Positions 9,045 through 33,453 of a stretch of 33,453 bases of DNA are shown here, in pieces. The DNA comes from an uncultured Clostridium sp. (GTDB lineage: Bacteria > Bacillota > Clostridia > TANB77 > CAG-508), in NCBI GenBank assembly GCA_946495905.1, contig CAMMEP010000004.1, positions 1-33,453 of the forward strand, written 5' to 3'. The translations under genes and the position numbers were made by a program. Every line of letters starts with the position of its first letter. Position 1 is the first letter of the stretch. The notes below the pieces were generated by a model. The model was given only the letters and a program-made list of their open reading frames with translations. It did no database searches and was not told the origin of the DNA.

Positions 9045-9198
9045 AGAGAAGAAGTATATATTTTTTATTTTTGATTTCCGTGCTTAAGGTGGGGACCAAC
9101 AAGTCTACAAACTGTTAAACTGAGCGAATGTGAAGTTTGTACAGTTTGTACGATGTTGGGGGCCGGAAATAAAAATAAAAAATATATACTTCTTCTCT
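9045..9198. repeat. Long foldback repeat, copy A (core in reverse orientation)
   Basis: Arms agagaagaagtatatattttttattttt (9045-9072) / reverse complement 9171-9198, 28 bp perfect, plus 7 further bp after a 1-nt bulge; core 9081-9163. Confidence 0.92.
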
Positions 9199-12925: not shown

Positions 12926-13666
12926 ATGTACATTAATGATATACATATACTAACTTATGTGGTAGCAGGAGTAATAGGATTAATAATAGGACAATTTATA
13001 GATTGGTGCAATATACGATTACCAGAGTATAAAAAAATATTTTCAAGAGAATTTTTTAAAGAATATTTAAAAAATTGTAAGCCAAAATATTTACTAATGG
13101 TAATTGTTGCAGTTTTATATATTGCACTTTTATATTTTAAAGGAATGACCATAGAAACTTTAAAATTTATGTTTTTAATTCCTATGCTTATAAGTGCCTT
13201 TGCAATTGATTTAAAATTACAAATCATACCAAACCGATTAACTCTTACCATATTTGAAACAGGCTTAGTATTTACCTTTGCAGAAACATTACTTACTACA
13301 AATTTTGGAATAAGTATTTTTATTGACCGAATTTTGGGAATGCTAGTTGGTGGAGGAATATTCCTACTTATTACACTAATTGGAGGAGCAATTGCAGGAA
13401 AAGAAGCCATGGGCTTTGGGGATGTAAAATTAATGGGAGCTTTAGGACTTTTCTATGGTTGGCTTAATATGATACTAATTTCTGTTATGGCATTTCTATT
13501 TGCAGCAGTAGTAAGTATTATCATACTAATAGCTAGAAGAAAGAAATTTAGCGAATATATACCATTTGGACCATTCATCGTAGTAGCATGTATGATACCA
13601 ATTTTTGTAGAAACACCAGAGTTACTGTTTATTTTACTTAAAATATTCTCACTTGGAACGTATTAA
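12926..13666 (+). CDS. Prepilin peptidase (A24 family)
   Basis: Multi-TM; AIDLKLQIIPNRLTL and AMGFGDVKLMGALGLFYGW aspartate motifs. Confidence 0.88.
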   Translation: MYINDIHILTYVVAGVIGLIIGQFIDWCNIRLPEYKKIFSREFFKEYLKNCKPKYLLMVIVAVLYIALLYFKGMTIETLKFMFLIPMLISAFAIDLKLQIIPNRLTLTIFETGLVFTFAETLLTTNFGISIFIDRILGMLVGGGIFLLITLIGGAIAGKEAMGFGDVKLMGALGLFYGWLNMILISVMAFLFAAVVSIIILIARRKKFSEYIPFGPFIVVACMIPIFVETPELLFILLKIFSLGTY

Positions 13667-29889: not shown

Positions 29890-30033
29890 TGTCGTAGCAA
29901 TGCCTATTTTAATTTTATGTTTCCGGCCCCCAACATCGTACAAACTGTAACAGCTTCGCTTAACAGTTTGTAAACTTGTCGGTCCCCACCTTAAGCACTA
30001 CAACATAAAATTAAAATAGGCATTGCTACGACA
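29890..30033. repeat. Long foldback repeat, copy B
   Basis: Arms gtcgtagcaatgcctattttaattttatgtt (29891-29921) / reverse complement 30002-30032, 31 bp perfect plus one outer T-A pair; core 29923-29998. Confidence 0.96.
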
Positions 30034-30427: not shown

Positions 30428-31726
30428 ATGGAGAAATTAAAGAAATTTCAAAGAATGTCACAAGAAAAAGGTATTACATTGGTGGCACTTGTTATCACAA
30501 TAATAATATTAATCATCTTAGCCACAGTAGCAATAAATTTTGCATTTGGGAATAATGGATTAATACAAAGAGCAGAAGATGCAAGAGATTATTACGCAAA
30601 TGATACCTCGTACACAGATGAATCCATAACAAATGTGGAAAGTTATTTAGATGAAATTATAAATGGAGTAGGAAGCGGAAATGGTGGTTCTGGTGATGGA
30701 GATGGAATGCCAGAGATACCAATGTCAGAAGCAAAAGGACAAGAAGAAGGATTTTCAGAAAAAACAATAGTAGTGGATAATCAAAATAATAAAATAACAG
30801 TCCCAGAAGGATTTAAAATAGCGGATGATTCAGGAGATACCGTGCAGCAAGGAATCGTAATAGAGGATGTTTCGGCTTCAAATGACTCAGCAGTACAAGG
30901 AAGTCAATATGTGTGGATACCAGTAGGAAGTTTTACAAATGATGCTGGAGAGACAAAAGAAGTAACATTAGGGAGATATACATTTAGTACAACAGATGGG
31001 ACTCCAACTCTAGTGCAAGATGCAGCAAATTATACAGACCAATCGGATAGTGTTGTAATAGATTCAGATTATAAAGAATTAGTAGATTATCGAGAAGGAG
31101 TAGCAAGTAGTGGATTGGATGGAGAAAATGCTACAGCAAAAGATTTAGCAGGATTTTTGAATAGTGCAAGAGAAAATGGAGGATATTATATAGGAAGATA
31201 TGAAGCTAGCTTCGCAAGTGGAAGTAGTGTAGCAGATTATAAAGCTGCATCAAAAATTTCAACAGCATATAGAACTTCAAGTGATGGAAGTATGTCATAT
31301 AGTGAAGGAACATTGTGGAATTATATAACAGAATTAGATGCATCAAAAGTTGCAATAAATACTTATGAAGATAGCGCAAGTGTAACTAGTGATTTAATGA
31401 ATAGTTATGCATGGGATACAGCAATTGTGTATATACAACAAGCTGGAAATGACAATTATGCAAATCAATCTGGAAGGTCGATTAATAGTAGTTTAGCAAA
31501 TACAGGAACAAATGGAGATGAAGTATGTAAAATAAATGATATGGCTTCAAATGTAAGAGAGTGGACTACAGAATACTCTAGTTACGCGTATAGCAGTAAT
31601 GCTTACCCTTGCGTGATTAGGGGAGGTTATTACTACAATAGCCGTAGTTACACGGCTTACCGTAACCACGTCATTGCGACTATTGCTGGCGACTACGTCG
31701 GTTTTCGCCTCAGCTTGTATTTGTAG
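30428..31726 (+). CDS. Putative DGR target: pilin-like N-terminus, FGE-sulfatase/C-type-lectin-fold C-terminus
   Basis: KGITLVALVITIIILIILATVAINFAFG; YVWIPVGSF...NDMASNVREWTTEY...VIRGGYYYNSRSYTAYRNHVIATIAGDYVGFRLSLYL. Confidence 0.88.
   Translation: MEKLKKFQRMSQEKGITLVALVITIIILIILATVAINFAFGNNGLIQRAEDARDYYANDTSYTDESITNVESYLDEIINGVGSGNGGSGDGDGMPEIPMSEAKGQEEGFSEKTIVVDNQNNKITVPEGFKIADDSGDTVQQGIVIEDVSASNDSAVQGSQYVWIPVGSFTNDAGETKEVTLGRYTFSTTDGTPTLVQDAANYTDQSDSVVIDSDYKELVDYREGVASSGLDGENATAKDLAGFLNSARENGGYYIGRYEASFASGSSVADYKAASKISTAYRTSSDGSMSYSEGTLWNYITELDASKVAINTYEDSASVTSDLMNSYAWDTAIVYIQQAGNDNYANQSGRSINSSLANTGTNGDEVCKINDMASNVREWTTEYSSYAYSSNAYPCVIRGGYYYNSRSYTAYRNHVIATIAGDYVGFRLSLYL
31574..31716 (+). 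other. Candidate DGR variable region (VR) ending in an IMH-like segment
   Basis: Abrupt change in composition and codon use (TAC, CGT, CGC, AGC, GTC) from an AGA/GGA/A-rich gene; located at the 3' end of the CLec-like domain; boundaries approximate without TR. Confidence 0.75.
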
Positions 31727-31799
31727 GTCTGAAAGCTGATAGAGAGAATAGAGTAATTAAATAAGTGAATAATAATGAAAAAGTAGATGTATTAGGACA

Positions 31800-31904
31800 T
31801 ACGTCTAGCGAACGAGAGTACGCTAGCAAGAGGAAAATTTTAGACGTACAAGAACATGGAAAATGAAATTTTACATGTTCTTGCAAGGAGAAAATTTTCC
31901 TCTT
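31800..31904. repeat. Nested inverted-repeat array downstream of the DGR target
   Basis: tacgtcta/tagacgta (31800-31807/31841-31848); ctagcg/cgctag (31805-31810/31821-31826); aagaggaaaatttt/aaaattttcctctt (31828-31841/31891-31904); caagaacatg/catgttcttg (31849-31858/31874-31883). Confidence 0.9.
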
Positions 31905-31950
31905 ACAGGAGCGCATGGCGCCAGCCTCCTTACAGGAGCGCATGGCGCCA
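31902..31950 (+). repeat. Tandem 22-nt repeat cttacaggagcgcatggcgcca x2 (27-nt period)
   Basis: 31902-31923 and 31929-31950 identical. Confidence 0.95.
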
Positions 31951-32061
31951 TTACTGCGTTTCAGAGTTTTTTTAGAGAAAGTTGTGCAAAATTAAAATAT
32001 TAAATATTAAGTCAAAGAAGTAATGGTGCCACCGCTAAAAATATATTAGGTGGTGATAGAA

Positions 32062-32499
32062 ATGGCATTTAGCCAAATGTTAGAAATATTAAAGGAAAAA
32101 GAAAAAGGAGCAGTTGTATTCGTTAAACTAGGTACATTTTATATAGCAGTAGGAGAAGATGCAGTATTAATGCATAAAAAATTGAACTTAAACTGTACAT
32201 GCTTCAAAATGAATGTCTGTAAAGTAGGATTTCCAGCTGTTTCACTAAATAAATATGTAGAAAAATTAAATAAAATGAAATATGCCTATGTAATTTATGA
32301 TTTTGATTCAGAAAAAATAGAATTAAAAGAAATAATACGTAAAAAAGGAAAATACAATAATGAAAAAGAAAGAACCATTAATTGCCTTCTATGTAGTGGA
32401 GATGTAAATAAAAGATATGCTAAACCAGATAAGTATGCATTAGCATTAACAAAAATGTTAGAAGAAGAACGAAAACAAAATAATATAAAAGATAAGTAG
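32062..32499 (+). CDS. MutS domain I-like small protein (DGR-associated)
   Basis: GAVVFVKLGTFYIAVGEDAVLMHKKLNLNCTC...KVGFPAVSLNKYVEKLNKMKYAYVIYDF aligns by eye to MutS [30 protein letters not shown]...[28 protein letters not shown]. Confidence 0.75.
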   Translation: MAFSQMLEILKEKEKGAVVFVKLGTFYIAVGEDAVLMHKKLNLNCTCFKMNVCKVGFPAVSLNKYVEKLNKMKYAYVIYDFDSEKIELKEIIRKKGKYNNEKERTINCLLCSGDVNKRYAKPDKYALALTKMLEEERKQNNIKDK

Positions 32500-32512: not shown

Positions 32513-32869
32513 ATGAGACAAGAAGAAGTACTTATCCTAATACCAAAGATAGAAAAATACATAGAATATATGTTAAATGTAATATTAAAAATTCCACGAA
32601 CAGAGAAGTTTAATATAGGTAATGAATATAAAGTAAGTATGTATCGATTATTAGCAAATGCAGTCTATATTAACAAAATAGAAAATAGAATTAGTTATTT
32701 AAATACAATAGATGCAGAGCTTGTATTAGAAAGAATCTATTTACGAATCATGTTAAAAAACAGATGGATAGATGAAAAAAAGTTTAAAGTAGCAATGGAA
32801 TTAATCTATGAAATAGGAAAAATAGTAGGAGGACTAATTAAGTATTATGCCAAAAACAATAAGAAATGA
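32513..32869 (+). CDS. avd: DGR accessory variability determinant (Avd)-like four-helix protein
   Basis: 118 aa, all-helical, IPRTEKFNIGNEYKVSMYRLLANAV; overlaps RT start by 23 nt. Confidence 0.85.
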   Translation: MRQEEVLILIPKIEKYIEYMLNVILKIPRTEKFNIGNEYKVSMYRLLANAVYINKIENRISYLNTIDAELVLERIYLRIMLKNRWIDEKKFKVAMELIYEIGKIVGGLIKYYAKNNKK

Positions 32870-33425
32870 ATTTGATAAAAAACTATCCTATGAAAGTTTA
32901 ATGCAAGCACATAAATTAAGTAGAAAAGGAAAAGGGTATCGAAAAGAAATAATAATTTTTAACCTAAAACAAGAAGAATACATTATGTGGTTATATGAAA
33001 AATTAAAAAATGGAACATATAAACATAGTGGTTATACTGTATTTTATGTAACAGAACCAAAACTAAGGAAAATAGAAAAGAGCATCTATCTAGATAGAAT
33101 AGTACATAGATGGGTTGTGGATAATTTTTTAGAGCCATACTTTGTACCAACTTTTATCGATACAAGTTATGCATGCTTAAAAAATAGAGGAATGCATAAA
33201 GCATGTTTGGATGTGCAAAGTACCATGAGGCATTTAACAAAAACATGGAAAGATTACTATATATTAAAAATGGATGTAAGAAAATACTTTCAAAACATAG
33301 ATAAGGATATATTGTATAAAATATTAGCAAGAAAAATACAAGATAATAAATTACTATGGTTATTAAAGGAAATAATCTATTCTAATGAAGGTAAGAAAGG
33401 ACTAGCTATAGGTTATAGCAATTAA
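32847..33425 (+). pseudogene. DGR-type reverse transcriptase, N-terminal part only (stops before YxDD)
   Basis: KLRKIEKSIYLDRIVHRWVVDNFLEPYFVPTFIDTSYACLKNRGMHKA; YYILKMDVRKYFQNIDKDIL; GKKGLAIGYSN then stop. Confidence 0.85.
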
Positions 33426-33453
33426 AATATTATAGAAAGTATTATGTAGAAAT

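Follow-up and report, generated by a model that had tools for sequence, protein, structure and literature searches.

The stretch at 31575–31714 of the window (the whole 33,453-nt stretch of DNA that was analysed) is, we conclude with high confidence, the variable repeat (VR) of a chromosomal diversity-generating retroelement (DGR) from gut Clostridia. The template repeat (TR), reverse transcriptase (RT) and Avd of this element would feed the VR and thereby vary the face of a probable lectin, and the system is presumably active in this strain. The features on which this reading draws are as follows.

12926–13666, + strand: prepilin peptidase (PilD/A24; PF01478, E = 1.6e-17)
30428–31726, + strand: DGR target gene, 432 aa, with a prepilin-like N-terminus (KGITLVALVITIIILIILATVAI) and a C-terminal C-type-lectin/FGE-like domain
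31575–31714, + strand: VR, from full-length alignment with the TR of congener G007, the GC3 shift and the codon-position pattern among paralogs
31699–31714, + strand: constant 3′ end of the VR, candidate IMH (CGGTTTTCGCCTCAGC), identical in the C36 paralog and with one substitution in the C15 paralog
31723–31738, + strand: VR-only box GTAG-GT-CTGAAAGCTG around the stop codon, with the CTG-N4-CT[GA] motif enriched at VR ends
31800–31970, + strand: strongly structured intergenic element between the target and the MutS-like gene (RNA fold −77.3 kcal/mol, z = −9.9)
32062–32499, + strand: MutS domain I-like accessory gene (PF01624, E = 6.6e-12)
32513–32869, + strand: Avd, accessory variability determinant (PF22296 bAvd, E = 1e-20; PHROG 3206, E = 9e-20)
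32847–33453, + strand: 5′ part of the DGR reverse transcriptase (PHROG 1423, E = 4e-53); the contig ends inside the gene

The variable repeat and its cassette

The codons of 31574–31714 have a GC3 of 0.53, with GC and A contents of 0.48 and 0.22, compared to 0.15, 0.34 and 0.41, respectively, in the rest of ORF 30428–31726. The next-highest GC3 among 47-codon windows within the target ORF is 0.23, and none of the 5557 such windows from the 13 other contig genes (maximum 0.40) reaches the value of the VR, where TAC is the commonest codon (8 of 47). The initial annotation had quoted this sequence and read 31574–31716 as a codon- and composition-shifted VR. Indeed, the quoted sequence lies at its assigned place inside the one ORF, the switch is unmatched in the 13 other genes, and the proposed edges were almost exact: homology to a congener TR spans 31575 to about 31714, ending 9 nt upstream of the target stop codon. 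The assignment to a DGR is borne out by the Avd and DGR-type RT genes downstream, by two paralogous VRs in the genome and by the alignment of the congener TR throughout the stretch.

The window corresponds to the entire contig C4 of a MAG of 1.30 Mb in 92 contigs that is 77% complete. The cassette runs from the target through a MutS_I-like gene and Avd to a DGR-type RT, which is interrupted where the contig ends (33453). An Avd accessory protein, one of the marks of a DGR, is thus present in the window, and its match to NCBIfam NF033474 (E = 2e-21, 76 bits) falls just under the cut-off of 80. Homologues of the MutS_I-like gene were found in 60 of 80 related loci. The remaining contig genes, as read from the sequence, are of housekeeping type (formate-tetrahydrofolate ligase-, MiaB-, MutS-, RecJ-, RelA/SpoT-, HisRS- and SpoIIP-like), the Pfam search among these having covered SpoIIP only. 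RTs related to that of the window gave three matches in viral contigs of IMG/VR, all distant (36–37% identity). With only these matches and with housekeeping flanks, a phage origin was rejected, and the DGR of the window is a chromosomal element.

The VR stretch matches two more sites in the MAG, C36:5043–5213 (81%) and C15:2770–2927 (79%), each at the 3′ end of a homologous target gene. The targets of the window and C36 are intact and both carry the VR box. The C15 target (L005:1630–2937) is split into two ORFs and lacks the box; it is probably decaying. Differences between the paired VRs fall mostly at codon positions 1 and 2. In one pair, positions 1 + 2 and position 3 account for 27 and 5 differences, respectively, as against 88 and 87 upstream (p = 4e-4), while the second and third pairs show 29:8 and 34:10 in the VR and 53:51 and 57:56 upstream (p = 4e-3 and 2e-3). 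This bias, visible without a TR, is the pattern that A-to-N changes in AAY codons give. Some differences, both between the genome's own paralogs and from the G007 TR, do not lie at TR adenines; the copies concerned may be old, or a TR that has diverged may serve them.

The 3′ anchor CGGTTTTCGCCTCAGC is found at a single place in the window, and its core, GGTTTTCGCCTCAG, matches at the three VRs only when the whole MAG is searched with one mismatch allowed. The constant end had been put forward as gtcggttttcgcctcagc, and on sequence grounds it is a plausible candidate IMH.

Template repeats and the RT-14 RNA in congeners

Searches of the MAG with DNA, patterns, the RT C-terminus, the RT-14 model and the congener TR matched only the three VRs and not a TR of its own, as would be expected if the TR sits downstream of the RT, beyond the contig end. 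A matching TR is missing from this 77%-complete MAG; that of congener G007 can be aligned along the full stretch. Scanning 84,980 genomes for related RTs gave 80 loci, and an RT match, at some distance, was present in 51 of 97 related genomes. In G007, one contig carries the target, the MutS-like gene, Avd, an RT 89% identical to that of the window and then the TR (L061:3503–3645), which is made of AAC/AAT codons. All 25 mismatches between this TR and its VR are at TR adenines (25 of 56 A and 0 of 87 other bases; p = 1e-12). Congener G029 has the same gene order and a different TR, with 23 of 25 TR/VR mismatches at A and 2 elsewhere (p = 1e-9). In an automatic comparison, 45 of about 80 related cassettes yielded a TR/VR pair in which mismatches at A outnumbered those at other bases.

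The VR of the window, compared across species with the full 143 nt of the G007 TR, differs at 24 of 56 A and 15 of 87 non-A positions (p = 8e-4), the 15 non-A differences being most simply species divergence. The AAC/AAT-type codons that had been predicted to lie behind the replaced ones are present in the congener TR at the variable positions. Because the variable bases are adenines of AAC/AAT codons, changes affect the first two codon positions and do not create stop codons. One VR of G029 matches its own TR (L062, G029 contig C56) and a second (L068, G029 contig C36:1123–1281) matches a G007-type TR, so the genus shows turnover of TR types. In G005, six VR matches are spread over five contigs. 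In L148:201–740 and L144:1700–2180, a near-identical second TR-like copy lies about 200 nt downstream of the first, and these loci possibly carry tandem TRs.

Directly 3′ of the TR position, 70 of 82 loci contain a conserved stretch that corresponds to Rfam RF02921, RT-14 RNA, with scores that reach 123 bits (gathering score, 48.1). In congener loci the RT-14 match begins exactly at the TR 3′ end, with 70 bits in L061 and 100–123 bits in L062, L083, L084, L112, L131, L141 and L153. The RNA comprises two helices (7 + 8 pairs) in which, over 61 distinct sequences, standard pairs occupy 98.4% of cells. Changes on both sides of a pair were found in 7 pairs and 61 cells, against a shuffled mean of 7.0 (sd 3.8) and no more than 10 in slid controls, and give a DGR spacer from outside phage BPP-1 a structure backed by covariation. 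A second, sub-threshold match (33 bits, E = 0.012) lies just downstream of the first at L061:3798–3869. RT-14 was not found in the window, which ends upstream of its expected place, nor by a search of the 77%-complete MAG with the RT-14 model.

The TR-RNA of BPP-1 likewise has a 3′ spacer (PMC12875486). Together with the placement of RT-14 directly after the TR, this suggests that RT-14 is, most simply, the 3′ spacer of the DGR RNA of this clade, where it may have a role in priming. The Rfam entry describes RT-14 as an sRNA only, and a link to DGRs was not found in the literature searched, a set that excluded the defining paper of RT-14. An orphan Rfam RNA now has a defined spot in a defined machine.

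A probable pilin-like lectin target and a box outside its VR

The VR is located at the 3′ end of a target that appears to be C-type-lectin-like from fold and profile matches that are individually weak. Pfam FGE-sulfatase covers target residues 325–428 with E = 3e-4, below the curated cut-off, and a profile of 21 homologues matches the target C-terminus to FGE proteins and to Treponema denticola variable protein 1 (TvpA, 2y3c), itself a DGR target. The AlphaFold2 model of the target has a pLDDT of 79.7, and its best Foldseek matches, 2y3c at the top followed by PvdO and CarF, are weak but concordant (E of 4e-3 and above, TM 0.2–0.5, best match 0.25–0.36). The agreement of FGE and TvpA matches in profile and fold supports the CLec ligand-facing surface that had been assigned to this protein end.

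Over the first 49 target residues the same profile gave matches to the N-termini of geopilin and MshA pilin. A prepilin-like KG-ITLVALVITIIILIILATVAI is present at the N-terminus, with A as the +5 residue where classical pilins have E, and an N_methyl profile was found in 3 of 21 target homologues at E ≤ 0.001. The prepilin peptidase at 12926–13666 may possibly process this N-terminus, and a PilC homologue is encoded on MAG contig C18. Together, the FGE/TvpA and pilin matches, the peptidase and PilC indicate that the gene product is likely a lectin displayed by a pilin-like protein, as judged from sequence and model.

Just beyond the VR, 33 non-redundant cases define a box with the consensus GTAR-N2-CTGAANGCTG, the mean conservation of which is 0.80, compared to 0.59 and 0.50 in the flanks. 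It is present in the window, in C36 and in several congener trans VRs, and absent from C15 and some other trans VRs. The motif CTG-N4-CT[GA], which was noticed in the same loci before being counted and to whose frequency common descent of target 3′ ends contributes, lies within about 6–14 nt of 37 of 45 VR ends and of 2 of 45 TR ends. Counts upstream of the VR were 0, and shuffled sequences gave a mean of 0.6 and a maximum of 3. Given the prior notice and the shared descent, selection on the box is likely rather than proven. Such a box could account for the distinction between a VR and its TR.

In BPP-1, a hairpin just downstream of the VR, with a 7–10 bp GC-rich stem and a 4-nt GRNA loop, is needed for homing (PMC3240598). 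No hairpin or cruciform of that type was found in the window. The box and 31710–31716 form an inverted repeat, TCAGCTT/AAGCTGA (7 bp, 16-nt loop), and inverted repeats of this type are not enriched at VR ends relative to TR ends. We rejected a BPP-1-like hairpin as a feature common to these loci, as perfect stems average 4.8 bp at VR ends and 5.2 bp at TR ends.

Proposed mechanism, alternatives and related systems

In the mechanism we propose, the TR would lie just downstream of the RT, beyond the contig, and be transcribed together with the conserved 3′ RNA (Rfam RT-14). RT and Avd would copy the TR with errors at adenines, and the cDNA would replace the VR from the 5′ homology up to the constant CGCCTCAGC end. 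The outcome would be a varied ligand face on the C-type-lectin domain of a pilin-like membrane or pilus protein, which probably binds changing surfaces such as mucus, cells or phages. In trans, the cassette would feed at least two more targets at other sites in the genome. A more specific version, which we consider evenly balanced, is that RT-14 serves as the RT/Avd binding and priming spacer, that GTAR-N2-CTGAANGCTG marks the receiving repeats and that one cassette feeds several scattered pilin-like lectins.

The end of the contig bears on an alternative, namely that the VR is a relic of a broken cassette with a truncated RT and a lost TR, such that the VRs are frozen products of past activity. 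The RT of the window is 89–93% identical to RTs of complete cassettes, and congener RTs at this level of identity carry the DGR motif GLAIGNYTSQ. In the window the RT reads GLAIG before its frame is lost after about 33411 (stop at 33425), and the contig ends before the IGxxxSQ motif is complete. For the final 40 nt or so, no match was found among other RTs or elsewhere in the MAG, and the 3′ half of the RT was not found assembled anywhere in this 77%-complete genome. These data, the missing TR and RT-14 and the broken, box-less C15 paralog are what a relic would leave. However, the break falls where a contig ends, in a MAG of 92 contigs, the rest of the RT is open and shares 93% identity with the RT of a complete cassette, and the window and C36 targets are intact and retain the box. 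We regard a relic as unlikely.

That three paralogs in one genome are 79–81% identical over the VR stretch would also fit an ordinary family of surface proteins that owes its diversity to recombination and positive selection rather than to retrohoming. Such a family is very improbable given that Avd and RT adjoin the target, that the VR edges are sharp, that changes follow the codon-position pattern and that congener TR/VR pairs have adenine-only mismatches. The GC3 shift alone could reflect a GC-rich stretch arising by chance or by horizontal acquisition, unrelated to a DGR, but the congener TR aligns over exactly the VR stretch with A at the changed positions, leaving this explanation scarcely credible. 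The reading as the VR of a DGR is thus retained.

The Clostridia DGR shares with that of BPP-1 (mtd/Avd/TR/bRT) an RT, Avd, adenine-specific TR-to-VR transfer (as judged from congener TR/VR pairs), a C-type-lectin-like target that has the VR at its 3′ end, a TR-RNA with an apparent 3′ spacer and an element just downstream of the VR. By contrast to BPP-1, it is chromosomal, has its TR downstream of the RT in congeners and includes a MutS_I-like accessory gene and RT-14 as the apparent spacer. The downstream element is the GTAR-N2-CTGAANGCTG box, whereas that of BPP-1 is the GC stem with its GRNA loop (PMC3240598). The target resembles that of the TvpA DGR of T. denticola, from a different phylum, in its TvpA/FGE-type lectin fold (weak matches). 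The T. denticola system, like this MAG, has several targets dispersed in one genome, and TvpA carries a lipoprotein signal where the target of the window has a prepilin-like N-terminus instead. The congener order of target, accessory gene, RT and TR resembles that of DiGReF cassette group 2, in which the TR is downstream of the RT (PMC3521204), to which the Clostridia cassettes add the MutS_I-like gene and the RT-14 spacer. The RNA classed as an sRNA in RF02921 is here the apparent 3′ part of the DGR TR-RNA. The element adds a member to a well-known system that is common in uncultured gut Clostridia, and the roughly 80 cassettes compared are of greater value than this one case.

Five RT genes (L061:3266, L062:3299, L084:5844, L124:2172 and L152:976) have the same +1 frame break, GAY AGR-C-GGR AAA, located some 50 codons from the gene end; beyond it, the +1 frame is open through the conserved C-terminus. 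In the other cassettes examined the RT reads through this site in one frame, and the RT of the window ends upstream of it. CGG occurs once in the 7040 codons of the window's genes, upstream of a likely start. From these sequences, the break could reflect programmed +1 frameshifting at a CGG codon that is starved or unassigned.

The structured element at 31800–31970 contains a 37-nt inverted repeat and two copies of the direct repeat TTACAGGAGCGCATGGCGCC, and related sequence is found in L061 and L062. A palindromic MITE-like repeat with perfect 32-nt arms lies at 29890–30033, with partial copies at 14–77 and 9055–9184.
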